Below, piece after piece: positions 1,992 through 63,226 of a stretch of DNA of 64,000 bases (position 1 is the first letter of the stretch; every line of letters begins with the position of its first letter). Source of the stretch: a virus; IMG/VR virus record IMGVR_UViG_3300025098_000018, positions 1 to 64,000 of that record; one strand, written 5' to 3'. The notes beneath the pieces are model-generated. The model did not search any database, was not told where the DNA came from, and saw only the letters and a program-made list of their open reading frames with translations. The position numbers and the translations under genes are program-made.

Positions 1992-3296
1992 TTAACTTTT
2001 CATTTGAATTAAAATATCTGAATTATTTTTTTTAAAACTTAGTTCACAATTAGGCATCAAGAGCCAACATCTCTTTAAGCCATGGGAAGGTGAAGGTTTA
2101 GGTGCACAACCATCTGTAAAGATTATATAGCCGTCAAAGTTCTTTTTGTTTTTGATTGCATGTTTAGTTACAGATTGAAAGCTTGTGCCTCCGTGCATTG
2201 TCCTTTCTATCTTAAGTCTTTTACCTTTTTTCCAAAGAAAACCTGACTTGTCATCTACTACAGCATCAAACTTATACATATAAAAGTCTGTTCTAGAGCT
2301 TAAACTATTTAGCTCTCCATAGAAATTTTCAAGTATTGATGCTGGCATTGAACCACTTTCATCAACATATACAGCAATTCTAGGTTTGTATATTTTTTTT
2401 GATCCTGGATGTATTGCAGGATATTTTCTGTTAAGCCTCTTAGTCGATGATTGTCTATCGTCTCTTCTCGTAAAACCACAAAATCTTTTTAAAACATCTT
2501 CCCATTTAATTGTCTTTGATATCATTTTGTTTAGAGTAATTGCGACTTGAGAAGATATTGAACCCCATCCTTTTTGATTTGATTCTTCTACGGCAGACTT
2601 TAATATTTCTCCTAACTTTTCTTTCATCATTTCTCGTGCTTCAGCACTCATCTCATCCCAACCTTCATGGTCATCAAAGCCAACATCAGGAAAGCCATCT
2701 GATAAGAAACTACTTGATTTTTCTGCATGTTCTTTGATTGTTTCATTTTGCATGAGTTTTTCAAAGTAATATTCAGAAGTTTTGTTTTGAGGAAAAGATG
2801 CAATAAGACTTGAAAGAACATTAAACATGTCAATGTTTTCTTTTGTCATATTTTCCATATCATCATTTGTTAAAGGCTCTAAATGATATCCAGGAACTAA
2901 ACCACCTTTAGGTAACTCATCATAGGGTATAATTGAATTAATAGCTAAATCAGTTGCATAGTTCCAAATAATATGAGGAGAATTTCTTCTATCAGTTGTA
3001 TGCTTAAAAGCTAGATGAAGACACTCATGTTTAATTAAACCTTTAACTTTGTTTTTTGGAAGTGAAGCAAGAAATCTTCTATTCCACCACATTGTAATTT
3101 CGCCGTCTTTACAAAGAACTCCTGCAGTTGGTATCTCTTCAGTTTCAATTTTATTTAAGCTTCTTAAAATTCTACTATAAAAAGGTTCGTCCCAAAGTAG
3201 GTCTACTAGATGACTTTGTAGTTTAAAGTTATCAATATCTGATTGGGAAACATTTATTGATCTACTAATTCCATTAGAAGTTGTTTCTTTTTTCAT
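1992..3296 (-). CDS. VWA-like protein with HExxH metallopeptidase domain
   Basis: A 434-residue protein of the type described as a putative metallopeptidase domain followed by a VWA-like domain. The N-terminal part has HECLH at residues 90-94, a zinc-binding HExxH motif. The C-terminal part has a MIDAS-type DESGS near residue 310, expected to bind a divalent metal and a partner protein. The gene directly upstream in the transcript is a MoxR-type AAA+ ATPase, the usual partner of VWA proteins in chaperone-like or cofactor-insertion systems. It has its own promoter box (3314-3345) and a strong AAGGAGG site. The substrate in phage infection is unknown. Confidence 0.85.
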   Translation of the reverse strand: MKKETTSNGISRSINVSQSDIDNFKLQSHLVDLLWDEPFYSRILRSLNKIETEEIPTAGVLCKDGEITMWWNRRFLASLPKNKVKGLIKHECLHLAFKHTTDRRNSPHIIWNYATDLAINSIIPYDELPKGGLVPGYHLEPLTNDDMENMTKENIDMFNVLSSLIASFPQNKTSEYYFEKLMQNETIKEHAEKSSSFLSDGFPDVGFDDHEGWDEMSAEAREMMKEKLGEILKSAVEESNQKGWGSISSQVAITLNKMISKTIKWEDVLKRFCGFTRRDDRQSSTKRLNRKYPAIHPGSKKIYKPRIAVYVDESGSMPASILENFYGELNSLSSRTDFYMYKFDAVVDDKSGFLWKKGKRLKIERTMHGGTSFQSVTKHAIKNKKNFDGYIIFTDGCAPKPSPSHGLKRCWLLMPNCELSFKKNNSDILIQMKS

Positions 3297-3313: not shown

Positions 3314-3345
3314 ATTATACACTAATTTTATAGTCATTTGCACGC
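3314..3345 (-). promoter_or_regulatory. Phage promoter, GCGTGCAAA box + TATAAT
   Basis: Read on the minus strand: GCGTGCAAA (3345-3337), 17 bases, TATAAT (3319-3314), then the AAGGAGG site of the VWA gene. One of at least eight sites with this layout in the window. Confidence 0.8.
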
Positions 3346-3368: not shown

Positions 3369-4463
3369 TTAATTACTTAGTAAATCTTTGTTTGAGTTAA
3401 CAACTTTCACTAAGTATTGGCCAATAAATTTGTGAAAGTTTTGAATTGTTTTAATGTTTTTAGTTTCAGAAATTTTGCTCCACATATGAATAAGCATTTC
3501 TTCTGATATACTTTTTCCAAACTTTGCTGCATTTTCTGCTTGTGTTACAGTCCAGTTATTTTGTCTTCCATGTTCACCTAGACGTTCAATTAGCAGATTG
3601 AGTCTATCATTACTTAATCTATTAATTTTATTAGTTAGATCATCATATCTGTCTAAAATATCTTGAGGAGTTACATTAGCCTCGTATTTTTCTACGTAGT
3701 CAGAAAACTCAATTGCTACGGGTGTGCCAACGAAACCTGAAGCAATGTTATATATCAGAGGTTTATCTAGCTTTCCTTCTTTTTCTAAGTCAATTGCCAT
3801 AAACTTTATAGCTTCATCTAACCTAGTCCAAGAAGCTGGAGTAGGAAATACGTTTCCTGGCTCAATGGAACTAGCATCAGGAGCAAAATTTATTGATCTA
3901 GTTTTTAGAAACTCAATAATCATATTGTCAATATTGTTTTTTGTTGCCCAAGAAATCCAGCTATCAATATCGGGCTTAAGGTCAACAGTCCAAAATCGTC
4001 TTAATAAAGCAGGATCCATTTCGTTTACATCATATTCTGATCCGTGGTTTACAGCTGCAAAGACGCGAGTCTCTGGGTGTAAATTATATGGATTGCCGTT
4101 TTCATCATTTCCTAACTGTCTATCTAAAACAATCTGAAAGAAGGATTGTTGGACTGCGGGTAAAGATCTATTAAGTTCGTCTAAAAATAAAACAACAGGC
4201 TCGTTGCAAGCCCTAATGAACCAAGCGGGCATGCAAAAAGTCATAACTCCGTTTTTCTTCATACCCTCAATATCTGGGTAACCTCCAGTATCACCTTCAG
4301 ACATTGTAGAACCACGTACATCGATAAGTGGAAGAGGTTTTTTCAAGCTTTTTGAAATCTGTCCTGTAATAGCAGACTTGCCAATTCCTGTTCCACCTCT
4401 TATAAGAACAGCAATATGTGGAGGAAGATCTTTAGCAATATTAATAAAAGTATCAATGTTCAA
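3369..4463 (-). CDS. MoxR-type AAA+ ATPase
   Basis: A 364-residue AAA+ ATPase. The Walker A motif GGTGIGKSA is at residues 23-31, a Walker B-like VVLFLDELNR near residue 92, and an arginine-finger region DPALLRRFW follows. This is the MoxR/dynein-related class that works with VWA-domain partners to remodel or load client proteins. The next gene in the transcript is such a partner. The start is a TTG at 4463, supported by AAGGA seven bases upstream, and there is a separate promoter at 4495-4526. Confidence 0.88.
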   Translation of the reverse strand: MNIDTFINIAKDLPPHIAVLIRGGTGIGKSAITGQISKSLKKPLPLIDVRGSTMSEGDTGGYPDIEGMKKNGVMTFCMPAWFIRACNEPVVLFLDELNRSLPAVQQSFFQIVLDRQLGNDENGNPYNLHPETRVFAAVNHGSEYDVNEMDPALLRRFWTVDLKPDIDSWISWATKNNIDNMIIEFLKTRSINFAPDASSIEPGNVFPTPASWTRLDEAIKFMAIDLEKEGKLDKPLIYNIASGFVGTPVAIEFSDYVEKYEANVTPQDILDRYDDLTNKINRLSNDRLNLLIERLGEHGRQNNWTVTQAENAAKFGKSISEEMLIHMWSKISETKNIKTIQNFHKFIGQYLVKVVNSNKDLLSN

Positions 4464-4494: not shown

Positions 4495-4526
4495 ATTATA
4501 ATTTAATATAGATCTATTTTGCACGC
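4495..4526 (-). promoter_or_regulatory. Phage promoter, GCGTGCAAA box + TATAAT
   Basis: Minus-strand GCGTGCAAA (4526-4518), 17-base spacer, TATAAT (4500-4495), upstream of the MoxR-type gene. The box begins one base beyond the stop of the neighbouring membrane-protein gene. Confidence 0.8.
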
Positions 4527-4860: not shown

Positions 4861-5610
4861 TTATCTCACTCCAATTCTAGCAACTTCATTAAAGCCGTTA
4901 TTTTTCAAGTCTAAAAAGAAAGTCCATCCTGCTCCACCAAATCTATTCTTTACAGTTTCTAGAACTCGTAAGCCCTTGAAATCTTCGTCTTTTCTTTCAA
5001 TAGAAAGATGAAGCATAGCATCAACCATGTGCTTAAGCTTTTGACTACCTGCCATGTTTCCGCTTTTATTTACCTGCCCAATGCAAATAACATTTATGTA
5101 ATGTTCTTTAGCATAGTCAGTTAGAATCTGTAAAGATCTAACAGCTGATTGTGTGTTAGTGTGCTCTTCTCCGTATTTTCCGTCATTAAGAGTTTGCAAA
5201 GAGTCTACAATAAGAAAGAAAGGTTTTCCTTTGTACTTATGTCTTAAAGAGTCACATTGTTTAATAAGCCTTGGAACGTAGCTTTCTTGCCCTGCAACAA
5301 ATCCGTTCCTTAGATCAAGCCTTTCGCATGTGAGCTTAATTTGGTACAAGCTTTCTTCAGCTGTATTAAAAAGACAAACGTAACCTTGGCTAGTTAAAGA
5401 ATCAGCTAGCGACAACATTAGAGTTGTTTTTCCTGCTCCTGGCTCACCAGTAAACAAAGAAATAGTAGAAGGTGTAAATCCTTCTCCTCCAAAAGCATCA
5501 TCAATATAATCTACGCCACACTTGTTTCTTTCTCGTAATTTGTTTGGTATGTTAATGTCAAGTATGTTTGTTCCAAAAACAATTTTGTCGTTTTTAACGT
5601 TAAGCTTCAT
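4861..5610 (-). CDS. RadA/RecA-like recombination ATPase core
   Basis: A 249-residue RecA-fold ATPase. Walker A GEPGAGKTT is at residues 54-62, a Walker B-like FLIVDSLQTL is in the middle, and the RadA-specific KNRFG motif is at about 221-225. RadA (Sms) is a ring helicase that drives branch migration in recombination. This version lacks both the N-terminal zinc finger and the C-terminal Lon-protease-like domain of bacterial RadA, so it is a reduced core. It could serve recombination or act as a replicative-helicase-like motor. It has its own promoter at 5659-5690 and a 5' leader with three TTAAATGTT-like repeats. Confidence 0.85.
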   Translation of the reverse strand: MKLNVKNDKIVFGTNILDINIPNKLRERNKCGVDYIDDAFGGEGFTPSTISLFTGEPGAGKTTLMLSLADSLTSQGYVCLFNTAEESLYQIKLTCERLDLRNGFVAGQESYVPRLIKQCDSLRHKYKGKPFFLIVDSLQTLNDGKYGEEHTNTQSAVRSLQILTDYAKEHYINVICIGQVNKSGNMAGSQKLKHMVDAMLHLSIERKDEDFKGLRVLETVKNRFGGAGWTFFLDLKNNGFNEVARIGVR

Positions 5611-5658: not shown

Positions 5659-5690
5659 ATTATAATACAAGTAAAACAATATTTGCACGC
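5659..5690 (-). promoter_or_regulatory. Phage promoter, GCGTGCAAA box + TATAAT
   Basis: Minus-strand GCGTGCAAA (5690-5682), 17 bases, TATAAT (5664-5659), upstream of the RadA-like gene. Confidence 0.8.
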
Positions 5691-5691
5691 A

Positions 5692-6000
5692 CTATAAAGC
5701 CCTTAAATAAGAACCATCATATTTCTGTACTCTACATCCAAACAATACAAAATAATAGTTTTTTTCTAGTTTACGGCCAAAATACGTATTGTCTGATACA
5801 ATCAGACCTATTCTTTGTGAATGTATACATGTAACAACATCATTTACTTTATAATTCCACTTTACTATTTTTTTTCTACTAGGTTGACTTTTTACTATTG
5901 ATTTTTTTTGTTTTTTTATAGAAGAATTATTAAAAAAGCTAGGATTTTCTTTTTTTAATTTGTTTTTTATATCTTTTAAGTCTTTTTTTGAGTAGGACAT
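5692..6000 (-). CDS. Lys-rich protein with C-terminal SH3-like domain
   Basis: A 102-residue protein. The first half is very basic and Ser/Lys rich (MSYSKKDLKDIKNKLKK onward) and may be disordered or bind nucleic acid. The second half has the VNDVVTCIHSQRIGLIV pattern of the small SH3/KOW-like barrels repeated in this window. Function unknown. It has its own promoter (6023-6053) and an AAGGAG site. Confidence 0.75.
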   Translation of the reverse strand: MSYSKKDLKDIKNKLKKENPSFFNNSSIKKQKKSIVKSQPSRKKIVKWNYKVNDVVTCIHSQRIGLIVSDNTYFGRKLEKNYYFVLFGCRVQKYDGSYLRAL

Positions 6001-6022: not shown

Positions 6023-6053
6023 ATTATAAACAATATTTACAAAGTGTACACGC
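6023..6053 (-). promoter_or_regulatory. Phage promoter, GCGTGTACA variant + TATAAT
   Basis: Minus-strand GCGTGTACA (6053-6045), 16 bases, TATAAT (6028-6023). It is a CGTGT version of the box and, like the other CGTGT versions, has a spacer one base shorter than the CGTGC form. Confidence 0.7.
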
Positions 6054-6069
6054 AAAAAGATCTAACTTT

Positions 6070-6540
6070 CTATGTCCTACTGTCAATACATGATATATCA
6101 ATTGTCGAACCGTATACATTTAACAAACCTTTTTTAACATAAGACATAATGCAATTTGTAGATACTTCATCCATTCTAGCATGATCAAATTTAATATTTA
6201 AATCAATAGCTAGCTTTTTTCCAACATTCCAAGCAGAAATCTCTTCATTTAAAAGTGAAACTAACTGTCTCTTAGATCTAATATGCTCTTCATATGTTGA
6301 TAAATTTGCTTTCATACTTTTAGTCTGGAGGTTGTTAAAATCGATTAATACATGACCTGCTTCGTGTATTAAAGCAATAAGACGATCTCTCCAATGATTA
6401 TTTCTGTCTATGTAAATCTTGTTTAAGTTAGGATAATATGCATCTTCTTCAAACTGTTTTAGAATTACATCTATATCATAGTATAAGTTTAGATGTGAAG
6501 TTAAGTGATAAAAACCGGGTTCATATAATAATTTTGACAT
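6070..6540 (-). CDS. ImmA/IrrE-like zinc metallopeptidase
   Basis: A 156-residue protein with LIHEAGHVLIDF near the middle. This is the HExxH zinc motif in the setting typical of ImmA/IrrE peptidases, which cleave repressors and other regulators. No helix-turn-helix domain is fused to it. It could inactivate a host regulator early in infection, but the target is unknown. It has an upstream promoter (6562-6593) and a GGAGTG ribosome site. Confidence 0.75.
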   Translation of the reverse strand: MSKLLYEPGFYHLTSHLNLYYDIDVILKQFEEDAYYPNLNKIYIDRNNHWRDRLIALIHEAGHVLIDFNNLQTKSMKANLSTYEEHIRSKRQLVSLLNEEISAWNVGKKLAIDLNIKFDHARMDEVSTNCIMSYVKKGLLNVYGSTIDISCIDSRT

Positions 6541-6561: not shown

Positions 6562-6593
6562 ATTATAGTCTATAAAATAATCTTAATGCACGC
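6562..6593 (-). promoter_or_regulatory. Phage promoter, GCGTGCATT variant + TATAAT
   Basis: Minus-strand GCGTGCATT (6593-6585), 17 bases, TATAAT (6567-6562). It lies inside the 3' end of the preceding lytic transglycosylase gene and drives the ImmA-like gene. Confidence 0.75.
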
Positions 6594-8950: not shown

Positions 8951-9167
8951 TTTCTTCCTTTTCACTTTTAATTAAAGCTATATTAAAGTTTGGTGTAAAA
9001 TTAATTTCAGGACCTCTTTCTGTAAACGTTAATATTTTTCTAGACATATTAGAAACTACAGTTGTATTTAAAGCTTCAAATTTTTCTTGATCAAAATCGT
9101 CAATTATAATACAGAGTTCTTTAGAAATTTTAAACTGTATTAAGTCTCCTTTTTTAAAATTAAACAT
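8940..9167 (-). CDS. Small SH3-like barrel protein
   Basis: A 75-residue protein starting MFNFKKGDLIQFKI, with the KGDLIxF motif that marks the small barrel family in this window. It overlaps both purA (8 bases) and purB (11 bases), so it is translated with them. Whether it has anything to do with purine metabolism is unknown. Confidence 0.75.
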   Translation of the reverse strand: MFNFKKGDLIQFKISKELCIIIDDFDQEKFEALNTTVVSNMSRKILTFTERGPEINFTPNFNIALIKSEKEENDT

Positions 9168-11493: not shown

Positions 11494-12405
11494 TTAACAA
11501 AAATCTTTTAAGTATTTCTTAAGAGCTCTTTCTTTAGCTTTTGCTTCTAACATGACGTCAACTGATTTGCCACAGCTATTAAATTTTTTATAGTAGTAAT
11601 TAGAGTGTGCAGCTTTTGAACTAATAGTTTTATCTTCATACACTTTTTTGCCGTTTGAATGATGACAAGTTGGGCGTATACCTTTTGGCCATGAGTCATA
11701 TGCCATCTGGAAACTAGAGACATAGTCTACATCTTGCGGGCCAATTTCGAAGTGATGTGAATCAAACACAATAGGCACACCAGATACCTTGTAGATATTG
11801 TCATATAGAAACTTTGTGCTAAACATAGCAGGTTTATCATCATTCTCTACAGTAAGTCTAGACTTTACAGAGTCAGACAAGCGCATAAAGTTTTTATTGA
11901 AGTTGTCTGCTGCTTTTTGAAGATCCCCACCACAAGTCGACCCTAAGTGTATATTAATTTTAGACCAGTGGTTTTGGTCTAGACCCATAAGATCAAACAG
12001 CTTGCCGTGAATTTCTAAATCTTTAATACAGTTATCAACAACATAATCTTTTTCTGAAGCTAGACAGTTAAATTGTCCGGGGTGAAATGAAACACGTTGA
12101 CCAATAACTTTTGTATAATCACCTGCAATTTTCAGGTAATGACAAATTTCTTCGTAGTCGGGTAAATCATGCAATTCATATTCAGAAGCCCATGGAGTAA
12201 TTTCAGAAGACATTCGAAAAACTTTGACATTATTCTTATAATTCCAGTTATATATAGGTAAAAGGTCTTTTACATTTTGCAAGACTAGCTGTGAAGCATA
12301 AGGTAAACCTTTTGTTAGAAATGTTTTTTTGCGCATTGTTCTAGAATTAAAAATACCTTTTTCTCTCAATTTCATATTAATGCATGCATATCCAAATCTA
12401 TTCAT
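11494..12405 (-). CDS. uvsE: UV-damage endonuclease (UvsE/UVDE family)
   Basis: Nicks DNA 5' to UV photoproducts, starting repair. The 303-residue protein begins with the family-typical MNRFGYACINMKL, and RMSSEITPWASE, RVSFHPGQF, NIHLG, LTVENDD, VFDSHHF and the CHHSNG region follow. These supply the His/Glu/Asp metal ligands of the TIM-barrel site. The ATG at 12405 is chosen over one at 12462 because the protein family starts here and AAAGG precedes it. Its promoter is at 12430-12460. Confidence 0.92.
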   Translation of the reverse strand: MNRFGYACINMKLREKGIFNSRTMRKKTFLTKGLPYASQLVLQNVKDLLPIYNWNYKNNVKVFRMSSEITPWASEYELHDLPDYEEICHYLKIAGDYTKVIGQRVSFHPGQFNCLASEKDYVVDNCIKDLEIHGKLFDLMGLDQNHWSKINIHLGSTCGGDLQKAADNFNKNFMRLSDSVKSRLTVENDDKPAMFSTKFLYDNIYKVSGVPIVFDSHHFEIGPQDVDYVSSFQMAYDSWPKGIRPTCHHSNGKKVYEDKTISSKAAHSNYYYKKFNSCGKSVDVMLEAKAKERALKKYLKDFC

Positions 12406-12429
12406 TATAATAAACCTTTTTTTTATATT

Positions 12430-12460
12430 ATTATAATATTTATTATTAAAAAATACACGC
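12430..12460 (-). promoter_or_regulatory. Phage promoter, GCGTGTATT variant + TATAAT
   Basis: Minus-strand GCGTGTATT (12460-12452), 16 bases, TATAAT (12435-12430), driving the UV endonuclease gene. It lies in the divergent region before the plus-strand gene at 12481. Confidence 0.75.
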
Positions 12461-12480
12461 ACAAATTAACAAGGAAAAAC

Positions 12481-23214: not shown

Positions 23215-23595
23215 TTATTCTGGAATGTCTTTAAAGCTGTTTTTTTTGCGACGTCGCCTTTTAGGCTTTTCGACAGGCTCTTCTACTTGAACAGGTTCTT
23301 CTACTTGAACAGGTTCTTCTACTTGAACAGGTTCTTCTACTTGAACAGGCTCTTCTACTTGAACAGGTTCTTCTACTTGAACAGGCTCTTCTACTTGAAC
23401 CGGTTCTTTAGTCTCAATACTTTTAAGATAAAACTCTAATGCACTATTCCAGTATTGATTATCTGGCGGGAAAACATTTCTTTTTATTAAAAACTCAGAA
23501 AAACTTTCATATGTTTTGCTTGAAGAATTTTTAATCCAATTAATAATATTAAATTTCTTACGGTTTGCAAAAACTTTATACTTTATACTTTTCAT
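23215..23595 (-). CDS. Repeat protein with (EPVQVE)n tract
   Basis: A 126-residue protein. An N-terminal domain of about 60 residues (MKSIKYKVFANRKKF onward) is followed by seven copies of a six-residue EPVQVE unit and a basic tail KPKRRRRKKNS. The Pro/Glu/Val/Gln tract is probably an extended rod-like linker, as in TonB-like proteins, joining the domain to a nucleic-acid-binding tail. It lies downstream of the sigma genes. Function unknown. Confidence 0.75.
   Translation of the reverse strand: MKSIKYKVFANRKKFNIINWIKNSSSKTYESFSEFLIKRNVFPPDNQYWNSALEFYLKSIETKEPVQVEEPVQVEEPVQVEEPVQVEEPVQVEEPVQVEEPVQVEEPVEKPKRRRRKKNSFKDIPE
23281..23406. repeat. 18-bp tandem repeat, 7 copies
   Basis: Seven adjacent 18-base units, each containing TTCTACTTGAAC followed by AGGTTC, AGGCTC or CGGTTC. 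They lie in frame within a coding region and encode the EPVQVE repeat. Copy number is likely to vary between relatives. Confidence 0.95.
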
Positions 23596-23849
23596 TATCT
23601 GCCTTTCATTATTTCAATTATAGAGCTTTGAAAGTCTGGGGATTGAGCTATCTTTTTTATTTTTTCGTCAGAATAGCTAATAGAGAAATCTTTAGTTATA
23701 CCTTTTACAACTTTACAAAATCCTCGTGTAATATAGTTTCTGACAGATGAGTGATTCATCTTGTGTCCATCTTTTGTCATTATTTCTGCTATAGATCTAT
23801 AGTCTAAGCCGTCATAGTCATTTGTTGTAACGTATTTTTTATTTTTCAT
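23595..23849 (-). CDS. Sigma region 4.2-like helix-turn-helix protein
   Basis: An 84-residue protein. The stretch YRSIAEIMTKDGHKMNHSSV continuing into RNYITRGFCKVV reads like sigma-70 region 4.2, the helix-turn-helix that binds the -35 element, with an insertion in the turn. It starts 11 bases before the stop of the sigma gene, in another frame, with AAAGG eight bases before its ATG, so it is a separately initiated gene. Together the two cover regions 2, 3, 4.1 and 4.2. It could instead be an unrelated small DNA-binding protein. Confidence 0.68.
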   Translation of the reverse strand: MKNKKYVTTNDYDGLDYRSIAEIMTKDGHKMNHSSVRNYITRGFCKVVKGITKDFSISYSDEKIKKIAQSPDFQSSIIEIMKGR

Positions 23850-24585
23850 TAAGATAGCCTTTCATTTCTTCAGTAACTGGAAAATTTTCTAAATCATTAA
23901 TATCTTCTTCGATGCCAAATCTTAGTCGAATAATCTTTTCTTCTTTAGGTGATAAAAGAAGAAGATTGTTTTTAATGATTTGCATTAACTCTTTTCTTTC
24001 TAGCGCATCAGCAGGATCTGAAAAAGCGCTATTGTCTGGAAGCTTATTTTTTATTGAAGTTGCTTTTTCGTTGTCTTCGTTGTCATAAGATACTGAAGGT
24101 TTGTTTGCTTTTATTGTGTAATTAATCTTATTAACAGACTCGCCTAAAGCAATTGCAACTTCTTCGATATGAGGTTTTTTACCTTTAATTTTTTCAAGCT
24201 CAGCAACTTTATTTCTAATTTTTGCATTAAGCATTCTCGAGTGTGTAGGAACTTTAATACTCCCACTTTGCTCGTTAATATATGATAATGCAGCTTGTTT
24301 AATCCACCAGCAAGCGTATGTGGAAAACTTATGACCTAAATCAGGATTAAATCTATCAACTGCTTTTAGAAGACCAGTAGTACTTTCTTGAATAAGATCA
24401 TCAAAGTCAACGTTTTTTCTGTGATATTTTTTTGCAATAGAAATAACTAGTCGATAATTTGATTCAATTAGTTTTCTTCTAGCTTCTAGATCACCGCTCT
24501 TTGCTTTCTTAGAAAGTTCAAACTCTTGCCTTTTAGTAAGTAGTGGGTTTTTCTTTATAATTTCACTAAATGCATTATTTAACAT
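23839..24585 (-). CDS. Sigma-70 family factor lacking region 4.2
   Basis: A 248-residue sigma factor. SNYRLVISIAKKYHRKNVDF, DDLIQESTTGLLKAVDRF and FSTYACWWIKQA are regions 2.1-2.4 with the -10-reading residues. A region 3 segment (IKVPTHSRML onward) follows, then region 4.1 (LLLLSPKEEKIIRLRFGI). The protein stops about 25 residues later without the helix-turn-helix of region 4.2. The next gene carries such a motif. It probably redirects host RNA polymerase to phage promoters. Confidence 0.9.
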   Translation of the reverse strand: MLNNAFSEIIKKNPLLTKRQEFELSKKAKSGDLEARRKLIESNYRLVISIAKKYHRKNVDFDDLIQESTTGLLKAVDRFNPDLGHKFSTYACWWIKQAALSYINEQSGSIKVPTHSRMLNAKIRNKVAELEKIKGKKPHIEEVAIALGESVNKINYTIKANKPSVSYDNEDNEKATSIKNKLPDNSAFSDPADALERKELMQIIKNNLLLLSPKEEKIIRLRFGIEEDINDLENFPVTEEMKGYLNEK

Positions 24586-24616
24586 AAATTTTTATTCCTT
24601 TTTTTGTATATAATAA

Positions 24617-24790
24617 TTAAATGTCAATAATTATTACACGTCTAGGTTCACTTTTTGTTTTTGTATTTTCTTTTATTGGAGGATAATTTTCTATTTCTAG
24701 CTGCAAAAAAGGTCTTTCATTTTCTAACTCTAACTTTTTCTTTTCTAAAAGTTCTTCTATAACCATCAAGTCAATTTCAAAGTTTTCCAT
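24617..24790 (-). CDS. Hypothetical acidic protein, 57 residues
   Basis: Start at the ATG at 24790, where GGAG lies about nine bases upstream. An earlier in-frame ATG at 24802 has no site. An acidic helical protein (VIEELLEKKKLELEN) ending PRRVIIIDI. Not recognised. Its 3' end contains a partial match to the phage promoter box pointing at the sigma gene. Confidence 0.6.
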   Translation of the reverse strand: MENFEIDLMVIEELLEKKKLELENERPFLQLEIENYPPIKENTKTKSEPRRVIIIDI

Positions 24791-24814: not shown

Positions 24815-26473
24815 TTAATACATATCATTAGATAACTGAACTAGTTGCACGTCATTACCGTAAGCATTACCTTCATTTAAAACAACACAACCTACACTCA
24901 TTAATGAGTTTGCAACGCTTACTGCGTTTTCTAGTGCTGTTGCTGTTACTTTCTGTGGATCAATAATACCTTTGTCAATCATATCAATGTAAGTCTCAGT
25001 TCTTACATCAAATCCGTGATTAAAGTCAGGAACTTTTTTAATCATCTCTATTATATAGTCAACAGATAAGTCTGCGTTTTTTAATATTTGTCTAAGTGGT
25101 GTAATACATGCGTCAGCAAGAATTTTTATTACAGTGCTTTCTAATAAACTGTTTTCTGCATCTAAAGCTTCTGAGTCTCTTAATAGCTTTAGACCAGCTT
25201 TTGCTAAGGCAATGCCACCTCCCGGAAGAAATCCACTTTCCATTGCAGCTTTAGTAGCATGAAGTGCATCGTCAATTCTGTCAACTAGCTCCAATAATTC
25301 AGACTCAGTGTGTGCTCCAATAGAAAGTACTGCTACAACTCCTTTGTTAATAACAAGTCTTTGTTTTAAATAAGCTTCTTCTTCTTTGGAAATATTCTTA
25401 TCTTTAAGAAGATTTTCTATACTCTCAAGAGTTTCAATGCTTTCTTTAGACTTGTCAGCTGATCCTGCACATTCAACAAACAATGTTTCATTATGACTAG
25501 TTTCAATCTTTTTGCAATTTCCTAAGTCTGAAAGTAGAATATTGTTTACTTCGTTTTCTTCTAAATCAAAATAAACTTTTGTATCTAATGCTGCTGCAAG
25601 ATCATTAAGAACTTGATTTCTTTTTTCTCCATAGAAAGGTGACCTAACAGCACATATTTGAAGCAAGCCCTTAGAAACGTTTGCTATTAAAGCTTGAATT
25701 GCTTCTTGATCATAATCATTTGCAATAATAAACAAAGGCTTTTTTGTTTGATGCGCTTTTTCTAATATTGGTAATATTTGTGTCAAAGAAGTCAATTTTG
25801 CGCTAGTAATCAAAACAAGAGGATCTTCTAAAATACATCTGGACTTTACTGTATCTGTCACAAAATAAGGAGAAATATATCCTCGATCTATCTTTACTCC
25901 TCTAACTAGCTTAAGCTCTGTACTTGTTGTTTTACTTTTTTCAACTGTGACTAAACCACTTGTACCTACTTCTTCCATTGCGTTAGAAATAAGACCACCA
26001 ATATAATCATCGCCATTTGCGCTAATAGTTGCAACTTGCTTTATCTCTTCATTAGAAGAAACAGTTTTAGACTTTTCTTTTAAAAATTCTTTAATTACTT
26101 CAGACTTTTTCGATAAAAGACTAGTAATCTCTGATGGCGATCCTACTCCTGTTTGCAATGCCTGTGAAGATCTAAAGTATATTTCTTTAGCCAAAACTGT
26201 CGCAGTTGTACTTCCGTCACCTGCTACTGTAGCAGTATTTTCTGAAGCTTGTCTTAAAAGCCTTGCGCCTAAAGACTCTACCCTGTCAGAAAGTATAATG
26301 TTTTTTGCAACAGTTGCGCCATCTTTTGTAAGATGAGGAGGCTCATTATTTTTTTCAATAAGGACTAATCTCCCTCGAGGCCCCATTGTTGAGCTAACAG
26401 CTGCACAAAGTTTTCTTACACCCTCTTTTAGCATGTATTGTGCTTCAGCATTAAAATAAATTAAATCAGACAT
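24815..26473 (-). CDS. groEL: GroEL-like chaperonin
   Basis: A 552-residue group I chaperonin subunit, full length for the family. It has MGPRGRLVLIE near the start, LTKDGATVAKNI, the nucleotide loop AGDGSTTATVLA with the catalytic Asp, and DDALHATKAAMESGFLPGGG with the second catalytic Asp. It lacks the GGM-repeat tail and ends QLSNDMY. No GroES-like gene is visible here. Phage chaperonins are known from a few large phages and probably fold capsid or other phage proteins. Confidence 0.95.
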   Translation of the reverse strand: MSDLIYFNAEAQYMLKEGVRKLCAAVSSTMGPRGRLVLIEKNNEPPHLTKDGATVAKNIILSDRVESLGARLLRQASENTATVAGDGSTTATVLAKEIYFRSSQALQTGVGSPSEITSLLSKKSEVIKEFLKEKSKTVSSNEEIKQVATISANGDDYIGGLISNAMEEVGTSGLVTVEKSKTTSTELKLVRGVKIDRGYISPYFVTDTVKSRCILEDPLVLITSAKLTSLTQILPILEKAHQTKKPLFIIANDYDQEAIQALIANVSKGLLQICAVRSPFYGEKRNQVLNDLAAALDTKVYFDLEENEVNNILLSDLGNCKKIETSHNETLFVECAGSADKSKESIETLESIENLLKDKNISKEEEAYLKQRLVINKGVVAVLSIGAHTESELLELVDRIDDALHATKAAMESGFLPGGGIALAKAGLKLLRDSEALDAENSLLESTVIKILADACITPLRQILKNADLSVDYIIEMIKKVPDFNHGFDVRTETYIDMIDKGIIDPQKVTATALENAVSVANSLMSVGCVVLNEGNAYGNDVQLVQLSNDMY

Positions 26474-26687: not shown

Positions 26688-27503
26688 CTACCTCTCGAAT
26701 AATTTATCAAATGTGTTTGTGTATTTTTGCCAAGTTTTTTCTTTTGAAATCATTGACTTAAAGTCATATTGCTCAAATACACTTTTTAATTCTTCCCACA
26801 TATGTGATTTTGGCATGTCAAAATATTTAATATTTTCTGCATCACTTTCTAATGTATGGAGTTTAATCATAAAAACATTTTCTTCTAACTTGTCTTTATA
26901 ACCTTCAGTTAGAAGAAAATTTTCTAATTCATCTTTGTTTTCACATAGCTTTCTTGCTCTTTTATCACCTATGCCTTTAAAGCCTATAATGTTATCAGAA
27001 GCGTCACCTTTTAAAGATTTCCAAAGAACATAGTCATAATCAGGTTTTTCTATGTACTTTTTTCTAACAGGATTATAAAGAGATACGTTTTTACTTATAC
27101 ATTGCATAAAGTCTGTGTCTGATGATATGATTGTTACTTCATTATTTTTTTTATCGTTAACATCAGCAATGTGTCCAATTATATCATCACATTCATAATC
27201 GTCATGCTTTACTAATTGTATTGGAAAGTAATTTGTAAGCAAAGAAATAATTGTTTTTCTTTGCAAAGAAAAATTATCTTTGTCATTGTAAGTTCTCTGT
27301 CCTTTGTAGTCAGGTTGAACTTCAAGTCTCTTCTTAGGCGCACCTTCTAGAACCAAATAGGCCATGTCAGGATCAAACTTCTCTATTAAAGGTCTTAGAC
27401 CTCTAAAAAAATTAAATATTGTAGAATGATCACCTTTGTTCATACCGCTATATCTAGCTCTGTAGATTAAGTTATAACCATCAAGAAGTAATATTTTCTT
27501 CAT
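26688..27503 (-). CDS. 5'-3' exonuclease / flap endonuclease
   Basis: A 271-residue PIN-like nuclease of the Pol I 5'-nuclease/T5 FEN class. LLLDGYNLIYRA, DDYECDDIIG, IISSDTDFMQ and KGDASDNIIGFKGIGDKRA (helix-hairpin-helix) supply the two-metal Asp/Glu residues and DNA grip. It removes RNA primers and flaps, complementing DnaE and the ligase. Its start overlaps the upstream gene by 23 bases. Confidence 0.92.
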   Translation of the reverse strand: MKKILLLDGYNLIYRARYSGMNKGDHSTIFNFFRGLRPLIEKFDPDMAYLVLEGAPKKRLEVQPDYKGQRTYNDKDNFSLQRKTIISLLTNYFPIQLVKHDDYECDDIIGHIADVNDKKNNEVTIISSDTDFMQCISKNVSLYNPVRKKYIEKPDYDYVLWKSLKGDASDNIIGFKGIGDKRARKLCENKDELENFLLTEGYKDKLEENVFMIKLHTLESDAENIKYFDMPKSHMWEELKSVFEQYDFKSMISKEKTWQKYTNTFDKLFER

Positions 27504-27933
27504 TTTTTTTTTGATCCAATTCTTGGTTGTTGATTGTTAAGTTTCCAATTTGTCCATCGCCTAGATCAACTTTAAGAGTTAAATCATCATCAACGTCACT
27601 ATCAATTATATCATGACTTAAATCTTCTTTACACGCATCAACTAACTCTTGATCCAAAAAATATTTTTTTCTAATGTCGTCAGTTTCAATAAGCATGTTG
27701 TCAATTGCAATACTAGCGTTTTTTAGCATATGCTTTTTAACATCTTCTAAATCTGTCCAAACATTTGTCAGTTTACTTAATATAACTTTTTTTTTATTTC
27801 CTGGCAGTTCTGCTTTGTATACAGTTTTTTCGCCTTCCAACGTTTTTGTTGTAACTTGCTCTGATATTTTGAGAGGCATTACTTTATGTCTCTCTTCTAT
27901 TATTGTATATATTAACTGGCCTACTTCGTACAT
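27481..27933 (-). CDS. Conserved phage-type protein with SH3-like N-terminus
   Basis: A 150-residue protein beginning MYEVGQLIYTIIEERHKVMP, a beta-rich start with VYKAELPG and a later LTNVWTDLEDVKKHML helix. The end is acidic. I recall similar small proteins beside replication genes in large phages but cannot name a function. It is immediately upstream of the exonuclease and translationally coupled. Confidence 0.65.
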   Translation of the reverse strand: MYEVGQLIYTIIEERHKVMPLKISEQVTTKTLEGEKTVYKAELPGNKKKVILSKLTNVWTDLEDVKKHMLKNASIAIDNMLIETDDIRKKYFLDQELVDACKEDLSHDIIDSDVDDDLTLKVDLGDGQIGNLTINNQELDQKKNEENITS

Positions 27934-51847: not shown

Positions 51848-54800
51848 TTAATCAAAAGCATTAATCTTTTTAAGCTTGCCTAAATTAGTAGACATACCCC
51901 AACCAGCATCATTCTTTACGTCTACAAGCCATGTACTAAATTCAACTCCTTCTTCAATGCTTCCCCACACACGTAGCCAGCCACTACGATTATCTGAGTC
52001 AACGCACTTCCAGCGCATAAAAGCCTTACCATTCTTTGTTGTCTTATGTATTACCTCAGTAACTGTAAACCAGCCAATTCCTCTTTCACCTTGTGGTATA
52101 TCAAATACGCTGTTAATTTGTTTCTGTTTTAATCGATTTATTAATTTAGGTGGAAATAGGAGGTCATCACTTGCATCATTGCTGAGATTGAAATAATTCT
52201 TTATTTTTTCTGATCTGCACCAGTCACTAATAACTTTATATCTAGTAATTAAATGATCTACAATAGGGACAATTGTTTCTTCGTTCTTTTTTGCTCTTTT
52301 TACTGCAGTTTTTGTCATTCCCCAATAACCTTTCTTTAAAATAGCATAATTATCGAGGATCAAATCATGGAGTTGTTTATGATTATCAAGTGTATTATCT
52401 TTAAACTCATCAAGAGACTTAAATGCTTCCATCTTCGCTAGCGATGAAAAAGCTGTTTTGTTTAGCTTTGAATGTTTCCATGCACCTTCTGTATCATAAA
52501 ATAAATTATTTAAATTTTTGTATGGTCTATTTGCAAATACTTCTTCAACAGCTTTGTCTCCTACTCCTTTAAGAGAAGTCAAAGGCGGCACAAAGGCTTT
52601 CAACACATCAGAATATTCCCATTCTAGACCTGAGTGATTTATATCGATTGCAGCAATCTCGTAACCAAAAGATTTAATCTCTGAAATTGCTTTTGACATG
52701 CCTTTAGGATTACCATTTTCAGATTGCAATATCGCAGCAAGCCACTCAGTCTCATAATGAGTATGCAACCAAGCAGCATAATATGACCCGATAGCATATG
52801 CAATAGCATGGGATTTGTTAAAGCCGTAAACAGCAAAATTTTCTATGTCTGCCCATAACTTAGATGATACTGATTCTGGAACATCGTTTAGCTCTTTAGC
52901 ACCTTTAATAAACTTATCTCTAGCAATTGCCTTTTCTGAGCCTTTAGAATGTAGAGTATCTAAAGACTTCTTTACCAAAGTCTTTCTAAGCTTGTCAGCT
53001 TCGCCAGGATCAAATCCGCTTAGCTCTTGTGCTAAAAGCATAAACTGCTCTTGAAACACTACATAGTTAAATGTTGGGCCAAGTATCTTTTCAATAATAG
53101 GATGCTCATATTTTATATCACCTACGTTTCTCTTTGCTTTAACATATTTCTTATGTACATTTGCTTTAAGAGGTCCCGGACGGTAAATTGCAGTTAATGC
53201 TGCTAGTTCCTCAATTGAATCAGGCTCTGCCTCTTTTGCAAAGTTTCTTGCACCTACAGCTGTAAATTGGAAAACACCGCAAAAGTGACCGTCCTTATAT
53301 ACATGTTCCCAAACTTTTTTATCATCCTGTTTTACAAACCTACAATTTAAATACTTATCAAAAAATGCTCGAGCATCTGAGAATGTTGGGTTAGGATTTC
53401 CTTGTTTTTTAAGAATTCTATATATACAGTTTTCTACGTCCTTGAGCAGTGTTAAACCTAAAAAGTCAAACTTTAAAAATCCGTTATCTTCAAGATTTCT
53501 AAAGTTCATACCTTCTGTCCACGGAGTTTGTAGTTCACCACGAACACCAACAATAGGCATAGATTCAGCTAGTGAATCAGCATCTGCTATTATTACGCCT
53601 CCTGCATGTCTACCAATAGCTCTATTCTGCATAAATAAAGTTTCAACATGCTCAGCAACTTCTGGGTATTCTGTCATAAACGAATTATACTCAGGAGAGT
53701 GTTTCATGCAATCTTCATGCTTAAGAACGAACACAGACTTTTCTTGATTCTTGTCCATTGCTTTTTGCATTACTTGATCTTGAAGAGGGCCAGTTACCTT
53801 ATTTACTTCGTCAAATGGAATATCATAAAACTTTGCAATATCTTTTACTAGCGACTTAAGCTTAAGTGTGTTGAAGTTTGATACTGGAATAACAGCATCA
53901 TCACCGTATAGCTCTTTAGCTGCATTGATGAGTTCATCGCGATCACCAGCATCTGTGTCTATGTCTGGCCAAGAAACACGATGCCTACCTAAGAATCTGC
54001 TCCAAAGTAAGTTATAAGGAATAGGGTCAAGCTGAGTAATGCCTAATAGATAGTTAACCAAAGAACCTCCACCACTTCCTCGAGCAGGACCAAATAATGT
54101 CTTCGTTTCAGCCTTTTTAAAGATTTCATACATTGTAATGAAATAAGCTTCATGTCCTAAATACTTAATATCAGACAATTCATATTTAGCTCTATCTACA
54201 TATTCTTTGTTAGTATGTAAACCTTCGCTGATTAAAGCGTTCTTGACTAAGTCTGATAGGTGTTTAAAAGGTGTTTTGTTAGGAATTGATATTGTTGGAA
54301 GCTTTGCACTTACATCTATCCAAGTATCTTCAAAATCATTCCAGACAATGTCATGTGTTCTTTCTATTGACTCTTTAACTAGCTGCTCGTTACCTTTATA
54401 AAAATCGTGTTCTTTGTAACCTTCAAGAAACTCATCCCACATCTGCTGAGCGTTTTTTGGATACAACTCACACTTAAGATCTTCAAATGCTGGAAGCGTT
54501 AGACCATCTTTCTTGCCTAACCATCCAAGCTTTTTATATAACTCTCTTGCTTGCCATTTGTCATTGCTCGGGTAATGAGAGTCTGCTGTTGATATAAGTG
54601 GAATACCCGTTAGCTTATGATGCTCAATAAGATAGTCATTAACAACGTGTTGCTTATTAAGTTTGTTAAATTGTAGCTCTAACTTAAAGTTTTCAATACC
54701 AACAGCATCTGTAAATCTATCTGATAAGTTTTGCAGGTCTTTTTGGATTTCATCACGTGATTTGTCATGAGCTACACCACGAAGTATTCTATTACTGTAT

Positions 54801-55423
54801 ATGCCTCCTAAGCATGCTGTATTGACATGTAAACCTTCGCCGTGCTCTTTAAGCATTTTAAAGTCAATGCGCGGGTATCTATAAAAGCCGTCTTTGTATG
54901 ATTTTTTTACAAGGGTAAATAGATTATTAAGACCCTTTCTATTTCTTGCTGTAACTACTAAGTGATAACGTCGCTTCCACTCATCTTTAAGTATATCAAT
55001 CTTTTTAGATTCATCTTCATCCTCTATGACAAGACCACCACTCTCATCATCAGCATCAATAATGATTTTTTCTTTACTCTTCTTTTCAGCTGCAGCAGCT
55101 GTTTTTGCATCTTTAATTGATTGCTTGTGATCTGCATAGTCGCTAGTCCACTGATCTAGTGAAGGAACAAAATAGAATTCTACTCCGTATATTTGTCTAA
55201 ACTTTCTGCCTGCTTTTTGCATTTTAACAGCATGCGAATGAGCATGTGCAAGACCATTACCATTACCATGATCTGTTAGTGCCCAAGCATCCATTCCTTG
55301 TGATTCAGAAAGAACAAAATCAATGTGATCTGCTGGATATCCTAGACCATCAAAAGTACTAAAAGTTGAGTGTGAATGAAGCGATACAAATCTATTTGGT
55401 GGTGTTATTAAATCAATAGACAA
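51848..55423 (-). CDS. dnaE: DNA polymerase III alpha subunit-like polymerase
   Basis: The main replicative polymerase candidate. The 1191-residue C-family protein has an N-terminal PHP domain (LHSHSTFSTFDG), the palm region GPARGSGGGSLVNYLLGI with catalytic PDIDTD, FLKFDFLGL with the third catalytic Asp, a helix-hairpin-helix region (LTSLKGVGDKAVEE) and a C-terminal OB fold (GWFTVTEVIHKTTKNGKAF). A disordered Lys/Ala/Glu insertion interrupts the PHP domain near residues 105-140. Most phages use family A or B polymerases, so this is unusual. It has its own promoter at 55450-55480. Confidence 0.96.
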   Translation of the reverse strand: MSIDLITPPNRFVSLHSHSTFSTFDGLGYPADHIDFVLSESQGMDAWALTDHGNGNGLAHAHSHAVKMQKAGRKFRQIYGVEFYFVPSLDQWTSDYADHKQSIKDAKTAAAAEKKSKEKIIIDADDESGGLVIEDEDESKKIDILKDEWKRRYHLVVTARNRKGLNNLFTLVKKSYKDGFYRYPRIDFKMLKEHGEGLHVNTACLGGIYSNRILRGVAHDKSRDEIQKDLQNLSDRFTDAVGIENFKLELQFNKLNKQHVVNDYLIEHHKLTGIPLISTADSHYPSNDKWQARELYKKLGWLGKKDGLTLPAFEDLKCELYPKNAQQMWDEFLEGYKEHDFYKGNEQLVKESIERTHDIVWNDFEDTWIDVSAKLPTISIPNKTPFKHLSDLVKNALISEGLHTNKEYVDRAKYELSDIKYLGHEAYFITMYEIFKKAETKTLFGPARGSGGGSLVNYLLGITQLDPIPYNLLWSRFLGRHRVSWPDIDTDAGDRDELINAAKELYGDDAVIPVSNFNTLKLKSLVKDIAKFYDIPFDEVNKVTGPLQDQVMQKAMDKNQEKSVFVLKHEDCMKHSPEYNSFMTEYPEVAEHVETLFMQNRAIGRHAGGVIIADADSLAESMPIVGVRGELQTPWTEGMNFRNLEDNGFLKFDFLGLTLLKDVENCIYRILKKQGNPNPTFSDARAFFDKYLNCRFVKQDDKKVWEHVYKDGHFCGVFQFTAVGARNFAKEAEPDSIEELAALTAIYRPGPLKANVHKKYVKAKRNVGDIKYEHPIIEKILGPTFNYVVFQEQFMLLAQELSGFDPGEADKLRKTLVKKSLDTLHSKGSEKAIARDKFIKGAKELNDVPESVSSKLWADIENFAVYGFNKSHAIAYAIGSYYAAWLHTHYETEWLAAILQSENGNPKGMSKAISEIKSFGYEIAAIDINHSGLEWEYSDVLKAFVPPLTSLKGVGDKAVEEVFANRPYKNLNNLFYDTEGAWKHSKLNKTAFSSLAKMEAFKSLDEFKDNTLDNHKQLHDLILDNYAILKKGYWGMTKTAVKRAKKNEETIVPIVDHLITRYKVISDWCRSEKIKNYFNLSNDASDDLLFPPKLINRLKQKQINSVFDIPQGERGIGWFTVTEVIHKTTKNGKAFMRWKCVDSDNRSGWLRVWGSIEEGVEFSTWLVDVKNDAGWGMSTNLGKLKKINAFD

Positions 55424-55449: not shown

Positions 55450-55480
55450 ATTATAATTAATTAATATTTAATTTACACGT
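55450..55480 (-). promoter_or_regulatory. Phage promoter, ACGTGTAAA variant + TATAAT
   Basis: Minus-strand ACGTGTAAA (55480-55472), 16 bases, TATAAT (55455-55450), upstream of dnaE. The AAAGG ribosome site follows. Confidence 0.72.
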
Positions 55481-62149: not shown

Positions 62150-63136
62150 CTAAAATTCGCTATTAAGTTTTTGTTTAATTAAACTTACAGCTTTTACATC
62201 GTCATTCCACATTCGTGTAAATACTTTTTCTTCACCTGACTTATTACCATTTAAGTCTTCTCTTTTGCACTGGTATATTGAATCATTTTCATTATAATCA
62301 AATAAATCATTTTTAGGTTCTGGCTGATATAGATTTGTTCCACGAGAAGTGTAAGTTCCATCTGGCAATTTAACTCTAAAAGTTCTTACGTAGTGCATAT
62401 CAGGCTTGTTAAAGTCTAGACAAGTTGATACTTCTGGAATTGCTTCACAAACAGCACGTGCGATGCGCGTTGCTAAAATATTATCAACCTCAGGTTGGAT
62501 TTGAACGTCTTGACGTTGTTTAATAAAACCGATCAAGTCTTTAAGATTAAATCTTGCAATATAAAAAGTCTCCATGCACTTAGGAAGTATTACTCTTGCG
62601 TCCATCATTGAAACTTTTTTGCTATCAACCATTTCAGAGTATAGTAGTTTTGCTTCCTTGACAATATCTAAATACCTAAAATAAAAGTCATCATCATCTT
62701 TTCTGCAGTTTTCAATTGACTCAGGAACTAGTGCATTATCGTGTCTCAAGTCTCTGTCACCTGTACATTGTGCTGCAAAAGATCCTGCTCTATGACGAAT
62801 AAGATGTGTAACAGTTTGTACATCAATACCACTAATCTTAAATGTAAATCCTAAACACTCCATTGGAGTAGGAAGTGCACGAAAATTAAGTACATCTTGA
62901 AGATTTGTAGAAGCCTCTTCGGGTGTTGAGTTCTTAAAATCAGTTTCAGAAGGTGAATCTGCCCATGTTGCTTTTGTCATGTGCCAAGCAATATTTTGTG
63001 CTTGTTCTCTTGTAGGCGCATCAATTACTTCTACTTTTAGTGATTCTAGATTGTTAATGTAATTTGTAACTGGATCTTGTCCAAACTTAAGCTGCATAGG
63101 AAGTGCTACTGGTTCAAGATTGTTGTTAACAGGCAT
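62150..63136 (-). CDS. thyX: Flavin-dependent thymidylate synthase (ThyX-like)
   Basis: Makes dTMP from dUMP using methylenetetrahydrofolate and FAD. The 328-residue protein has LIRHRAGSFAAQCTGDRDLR, a divergent version of the ThyX signature RHRxxSxNExSxRY. The family's NE is replaced and Cys stands near the usual Ser. It also has TFYIARFNLKDLIGFIKQR. The protein is longer than usual at the C-terminus. Its promoter is at 63196-63226 and GGAG precedes the ATG. It works with dCMP deaminase and thymidine kinase. The altered motif could mean altered chemistry. Confidence 0.87.
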   Translation of the reverse strand: MPVNNNLEPVALPMQLKFGQDPVTNYINNLESLKVEVIDAPTREQAQNIAWHMTKATWADSPSETDFKNSTPEEASTNLQDVLNFRALPTPMECLGFTFKISGIDVQTVTHLIRHRAGSFAAQCTGDRDLRHDNALVPESIENCRKDDDDFYFRYLDIVKEAKLLYSEMVDSKKVSMMDARVILPKCMETFYIARFNLKDLIGFIKQRQDVQIQPEVDNILATRIARAVCEAIPEVSTCLDFNKPDMHYVRTFRVKLPDGTYTSRGTNLYQPEPKNDLFDYNENDSIYQCKREDLNGNKSGEEKVFTRMWNDDVKAVSLIKQKLNSEF

Positions 63137-63195: not shown

Positions 63196-63226
63196 ATTAT
63201 AATACGTGTTGACAATATTTACACGT
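63196..63226 (-). promoter_or_regulatory. Phage promoter, ACGTGTAAA variant + TATAAT
   Basis: Minus-strand ACGTGTAAA (63226-63218), 16 bases, TATAAT (63201-63196), upstream of thyX. It lies within 11 bases of the preceding gene's stop. Confidence 0.72.

Follow-up and report, generated by a model that had tools for sequence, protein, structure and literature searches.

Sigma domain 4 is one compact fold. Sharing of sigma functions between two co-operating proteins is known from SigO–RsoA of Bacillus subtilis (PMC7218084, PMC10141391), which is a two-subunit sigma, as is proposed for the phage pair described below, but is bacterial and is cut between whole sigma domains, not inside domain 4 (PMC10141391). 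Phage T4 offers two further comparisons. Its gp55 is a phage sigma without a −35 reader that has a small partner, gp33, at the domain-4 site (PMC2988020); unlike in the present pair, only region 2 is recognisable in gp55, gp33 reads no DNA sequence, and the late promoters have no −35 element. At T4 middle genes, the phage protein MotA recognises a box that stands in for the −35 element ahead of TATAAT (PMC2988021), but there host σ70 is remodelled by AsiA and the MotA box lies 12 bases from the −10 element, whereas the present pair contains its own truncated phage sigma and goes with a box at −35 spacing. The adjacent, overlapping genes of SPO1 gp33 and gp34, annotated as sigma factor and sigma accessory, resemble our locus in layout, but their order is reversed and no homology to our sigma and helix-turn-helix (HTH) profiles was found (HMM scores below 3 bits).

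A truncated sigma factor and a separate HTH protein

The locus is on the minus strand of a contig of 115.5 kb from an uncultivated phage; the first 64,000 nucleotides of this contig make up the window, i.e. the whole stretch of DNA that was read. The first gene (23839–24585, minus strand) encodes a truncated σ70 factor of 248 residues with regions 1.2, 2, 3 and 4.1. Pfam recognises region 1.2 (6.7e-6), region 2 (PF04542, 1.1e-20) and region 3 (3e-5, slightly below its curated cut-off), and finds no region 4 in the 248 residues. The sigma family profile aligns with solved SigA and RpoD only to the end of 4.1, and with RpoS as far as the same point; against SigA, regions 1.2–4.1 align with E-values down to 4e-73. 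The protein thus resembles the group 1/2 factors SigA, RpoD and RpoS over regions 1.2–4.1 and differs from them in having no region 4.2 in the same chain. Its place among σ70 factors is given by region 2, the part for core binding and −10 recognition (Pfam 1.1e-20; SigA 4e-73). A complete region 4 with a −35-reading HTH is absent from this chain, and among its relatives an in-chain HTH occurs only in the fused protein L272 (see below). The chain ends 23 residues past an LRFGI motif, where region 4.2 would start. Pfam and the SigA/RpoD alignment thus bear out the sequence-only reading, which had the sigma factor stop before the HTH after regions 2, 3 and 4.1. A hint from hhalign that the sigma tail is a decayed 4.2 helix found no support in shuffles and was dropped. 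No other sigma-like gene was found in the contig.

The next gene (23595–23849, minus strand) encodes an 84-residue HTH protein with the recognition segment GHKMNHSSVRN. It is in a different frame and overlaps the sigma gene by 11 bases, its ATG lying 11 bases before the end of the sigma stop codon; it has its own AAAGG just upstream of the ATG (GAAATGAAAGGCTATCTTAATG), and its frame is closed by a stop five codons upstream of that ATG. Coordinates and frames confirm the arrangement first read from the letters, and the closed frame, together with the same split in relatives, upholds the early view that a frame error is unlikely.

A third gene (23215–23595, minus strand; 126 residues) overlaps the HTH gene by one base. 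Its product has a conserved N-terminal domain (FxxRKxF...SYxxF..VxPP), EPVQVE repeats and a basic C-terminal tail; most relatives also carry the gene after the pair, and one resembling it comes after the L272 fusion. The number of EPVQVE copies varies, the near-identical L001 contig having a shorter tract (114 vs 126 residues). A suspected resemblance of this product to T4 gp33 was set aside; a search of the phage database gave no match. A GroEL-type chaperonin gene (24815–26473) lies two genes upstream of the operon, with one small ORF between.

Conservation of the split

A sigma search of IMG/VR returned 43 loci, of which 39 were usable; L040 and L043 are ordinary full sigmas, and L041 and L042 are truncated loci. 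In all 39, with sigma identities from 100 to 36% over the alignment, the sigma factor stops just past the RFG motif of 4.1 and the HTH gene comes next, at offsets of about −50 to +38 bases. With the HTH alignment as query, 251 loci were found, 80 of which were kept; 68 of these were newly listed, and a truncated sigma lies upstream of the HTH gene in every one (68/68). After removal of repeats, about 98 distinct contigs remain, some of them nearly identical; they share kinship and are not independent events. The split, which the sequence-only reading had proposed to look for in related phages, is present in all ~98 of these IMG/VR relatives with the HTH gene next, mostly overlapping or ≤40 bases away, and about 80–430 bases away in one freshwater clade. 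On this sequence evidence, its presence in relatives at 36–77% identity rules out a sequencing indel and chance, and a widespread uncultivated group of large water phages keeps its sigma factor as two proteins. In the sigma alignment of relatives, residues E215, R220, R222, F223 and G224 of region 4.1 are invariant, as would be expected if something still packs on 4.1.

Among 50,697 named phages, three different queries found no HTH protein of this kind; a weak cyanophage match (E 0.8) falls within an unrelated protein and was discarded. The related sigmas of named phages all carry region 4.2 in the same chain (Vibrio YC, SD25, D506 and 2.275, Microcystis MaAM05, SBSphiJ5, S-H34 and S-CBS1).

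The predicted HTH fold and a natural fusion

AlphaFold gives the 84-residue protein an HTH fold with confidence (helices 17–26, 33–54, 61–68 and 71–81 in the family model; core pLDDT about 95), rather than a structure without a 4.2 fold, the outcome that the sequence-only reading had named as speaking against it. In one relative, L061, sigma and HTH are in one frame, parted by a TAA. The read-through product of L061, modelled from an input alignment whose rows are mostly unpaired, has a mean pLDDT of 88, with 94–97 over the HTH. Foldseek ranks σS and SigA in initiation complexes first for this model, over 309–343 alignment columns; this is more than the sigma part alone and implies that in the model the HTH is aligned with region 4.2 of the targets. 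The HTH model by itself has no significant PDB match in a fold search; it matches one uncharacterized viral model (A0A6J7X3V2, TM 0.64/0.73, E 0.03).

At the sequence level the relation to region 4.2 is weak. Pfam Sigma70_r4_2 matches at E=0.02, below the cut-off, hhalign finds the right register without significance (P 0.12), HMM scores against region 4 are little above those of shuffles, and no significant match to Sigma70_r4 or r4_2 was obtained. The PHROG matches of the HTH family include no gp33-type family. The description of the small protein as a region-4.2-like HTH therefore holds for its predicted fold and not for a sequence relationship, and profile searches with both proteins recovered the sigma regions up to 4.1 and left the HTH sub-threshold for 4.2. 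As the similarity is not significant, the HTH may be a replacement and not the product of simple fission: a single gene may have broken in two, or 4.2 may have been lost and a different HTH taken up in its place. We propose a 4.2-like role, as modelled, and do not claim common descent with 4.2.

A fold of this type directly after 4.1 is found both in the AlphaFold models and in a natural fusion. A search of 84,980 bacterial and archaeal genomes gave matches in only three MAG contigs. Two of them (L270 and L271) carry the split pair, and the third, L272, has both halves in a single 357-residue frame without a stop or frame break, with the sigma profile matching residues 45–267 and the HTH profile residues 259–340 (i-Evalue 8e-16). 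Judging from these profile positions, L272 puts the HTH where region 4.2 belongs. It is one sequence from a distant relative, probably on a phage contig, and no further fused form was found among the IMG/VR relatives fetched.

A non-canonical promoter box

Inspection of the contig's intergenic sequence first brought out a recurring CGTGYAAA before TATAAT. In the window, CGTGYAA-N12..24-TATAAT occurs six times against 0.04 expected (0 of 100 shuffles). The contig as a whole contains 12 exact CGTGYA-TATAAT sites, six with a spacer of 18 and six with 19, all on the coding strand, and none at other spacers between 4 and 27; if one mismatch in the −10 is allowed, there are 16 sites against 1.9 expected. 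No TTGACA stands upstream of genes in this contig.

The boxes precede genes for an HNH endonuclease, two ATPases, an exonuclease, DNA polymerase III alpha, thymidylate synthase, a helicase and SSB. Within the window, and on its minus strand throughout, GTGYAA-type promoters lie before the HNH endonuclease gene (CGTGCA-19-TATAAT at 3314–3344; gene 1992–3296), an ATPase gene (4495–4525; gene 3369–4463), a KaiC/RecA-like ATPase gene (5659–5689; gene 4861–5610), ORF 5692–6000 (CGTGTA-18-TATAAT at 6023–6052), ORF 6070–6540 (CGTGCA-19-TATAAT at 6562–6592), the 5′–3′ exonuclease gene (27605–27635; gene 26688–27503), the DNA polymerase III alpha-like gene (55450–55479; gene 51848–55423) and the thymidylate synthase-like gene (63196–63225; gene 62150–63136), gene starts having been called by simple ORF rules. 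A CGTGTA-18-TATAAT site at 12430–12459, also on the minus strand, sits at the start of an endonuclease gene (11494–12462), upstream of a PurZ-like gene. The sigma operon also has a box, there with TATTAT: this candidate promoter (CGTGTA-19-TATTAT, 24610–24640, minus strand) overlaps the end of the upstream ORF and is kept in L008, L014, L015, L017, L018, L060 and L061.

The window gene at 9160–10359 matches a PurZ-type family (2-aminoadenylosuccinate synthetase, phrog_1211), a hint that the phage DNA contains 2-aminoadenine. The replication set is mixed, combining the DnaE-like DNA polymerase III alpha (51848–55423) with T4-type UvsX, gp32-like SSB and DnaB helicase elsewhere in the contig.

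A GTGYAA-like box 17–19 bases upstream of the −10 was found in eight of nine split-sigma contigs examined and in none of four intact-sigma controls. Exact CGTGYA-TATAAT sites number 15 in G014 (L034) and 13, 5, 5 and 5 in four others, the contig with 13 being G001, a near-identical relative of our own; the reversed pattern, used as a control, gave counts near zero. When all 6-mers and spacings before TATAAT were scanned blindly (about 225,000 tests), the same box was the top dyad of the marine split contigs, with p from 7e-7 to 2e-23; these are uncorrected Poisson values with expectations taken from neighbouring spacings, so that only those below about 1e-8 stand alone, which that of G006 does not. 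The leading dyads were CGTGTA with spacer 18 in our contig, GTGCAA with spacer 17 in G014 (13 vs 0.15 expected), TGTAAA with spacer 18 in G013 (14 vs 0.15 expected; box TTCTGTAAAA, with a variant CTGTAAAA at spacer 19), GTGTAA with spacer 18 in G006, and TGTAAA with spacer 16 and TTGTAA with spacer 17 in G016. In G015 the upstream flank AAAGTG leads (spacer 20), along with GTGTAA (17), both being parts of one box, AAAGTGYAAC. Counting [GTC]TGYAA by its distance to TATAAT gave a sharp peak at 17–19 in all six marine split contigs.

In two freshwater contigs, a scan anchored on TANNNT plus the start codon gave GTGCAA (24 vs 0.33 expected) and, in G020, GTGAAA (19 vs 0.11) as top dyads, both with spacer 18. 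In G021 (L175–L189) and G020 (L200–L209), TANNNT lies 4–9 bases before the ATG, with GGTGCAAA or GGTGAAA about 18 bases above it, and the genes are apparently leaderless as read from their sequence. No clear box was seen in two contigs with the split pair, freshwater G018 and marine G008, the latter searched only for the exact CGTGYA form.

Among the intact-sigma controls, the distance counts show no peak at 17–18 and at most five sites at 19 (W02). The blind scan found no such dyad there: MaAM05 and SPO1 gave nothing, G023 only a weak GTAAAT at spacer 16, and W02 (Vibrio phage 2.275) only an extended −10. In this Vibrio phage (L250–L259) the extended −10 TAAAATGTATAAT is repeated, with AAATGT directly before TATAAT 16 times against 0.15 expected, which suggests a promoter class of its own without a −35 box.

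In relatives, the genes behind the box include an HNH endonuclease, DNA ligase, DNA helicase and a DnaB/UvsX-like ATPase, six of ten tested downstream genes having no match. Where the TGYAA core is kept, the HTH segment G-x-K-M-N-H-x-x-x-R-N hardly varies. By its hexamer register the box occupies the position of a −35 element, and at this spacing it co-occurs with the split pair.

A probable two-subunit sigma and its alternatives

We consider it likely that the two genes form one functional two-subunit sigma whose small subunit supplies the rest of region 4 and recognises the GTGYAA box. The large subunit (regions 1.2 to 4.1) would bind core RNA polymerase, open the −10 box and keep the 4.1 half of domain 4, and the HTH of the small subunit would complete domain 4 beside it and read GTGYAA (extended CGTGYAAA) as a −35 box, 17–18 bases (19 in one lineage) before a TATAAT-type −10. 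Overlapping translation would yield similar amounts of both subunits, and the pair would drive promoters of replication, recombination and nucleotide genes and of its own operon. Good support for the core of the sequence-only reading, in which the sigma is divided between 4.1 and 4.2 and another protein brings the −35-reading HTH, comes from the conserved pair, the L272 fusion and the dedicated −35-type box, and the small protein is probably a separate promoter-reading subunit.

We infer complex formation, docking on the β-flap, reading of the box and timing; the only physical link between the two proteins is the L272 fusion, which as sequence indirectly supports a complex. That this HTH is the reader of the GTGYAA box is likewise what we infer, and here lies the main gap of the account; the reader could instead be some other protein, such as the host sigma. 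A phage-encoded reader explains the box better than host sigmas do, since phages with different GC content, −10 styles and leader lengths have the core of the box in common, and in these same phages the HTH segment is nearly invariant. Against a two-subunit sigma speak the non-significant similarity of the HTH to 4.2, the lack of a significant PDB match to the HTH model alone, and the two contigs without a clear box. The same box also appears to serve the sigma operon, and transcription must therefore be started by something else.

It is rather unlikely that the HTH protein is a separate MotA-like activator that reads GTGYAA and touches the truncated sigma or the polymerase without completing the region-4 fold. 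Such an activator is functionally close to the small subunit of a two-subunit sigma and structurally different from it, and would suit the lack of significant similarity to 4.2, the separation of the genes in the freshwater clade (about 80–430 bases) and the precedent of T4 MotA, which likewise recognises a box in place of the −35 element ahead of TATAAT (PMC2988021). It is at odds with the natural fusion to 4.1 in L272, the strict conservation of 4.1 and the position of the box at −35 spacing (17–19), as against the 12 bases of MotA.

Less probable still, GTGYAA could mark early promoters for the host sigma, with the phage sigma and HTH acting elsewhere, e.g. on late genes. Early or middle expression would fit the location of the boxes ahead of replication-type genes and of the sigma operon, but the box is long and strict, unlike TTGACA, which is absent upstream of genes in our contig; the same core serves low-GC marine contigs with leaders and apparently leaderless freshwater genes, which suggests different hosts; and intact-sigma phages lack it.

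That the small protein is a gp33-type β-flap binder that reads no DNA is very improbable. The model would be T4 gp55 with gp33, which has been called a split sigma and in which gp33 binds the flap at the docking site of sigma domain 4 (PMC2988020). However, a polar recognition segment is conserved in the HTH of our small protein, the large subunit retains regions 3 and 4.1, unlike gp55, and the promoters have an upstream box, which T4 late promoters lack. Finally, the idea of an ordinary one-piece sigma gene with a frameshift from sequencing or assembly, which the overlap in different frames might suggest, is refuted by the same split in about 98 contigs with overlaps varying in length and frame, and by the second frame being closed five codons upstream.

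A possible second promoter class

In G013 (L160–L174), a motif ATATTTAT lies 30–50 bases before the portal and tail-sheath genes, with examples before 132759, 168636, 183880 and 192370 that include other large genes. This region of the G013 genome has no GTGYAA-type sites, and ATATTTAT, a class that rests on few sites, is a possible late promoter motif. If the two-subunit sigma is real, its −35 reader might be exchangeable: with the HTH, the truncated sigma would use GTGYAA replication promoters, and without it, or with another partner, ATATTTAT-class late promoters, so that one small subunit would switch the class. We regard this as a tentative and somewhat doubtful extension. A detachable subunit that switches promoter classes, as the sequence-only reading imagined, is only compatible with the data.

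Significance

A lineage of phages, both marine and freshwater, with domain 4 kept in two genes would demonstrate that a sigma factor can have its −35 reader as a subunit of its own. The defined promoter box makes the idea directly testable in vitro, gives a promoter annotation for a large uncultivated phage group, and, together with its reader, would offer a natural modular part for promoter engineering.
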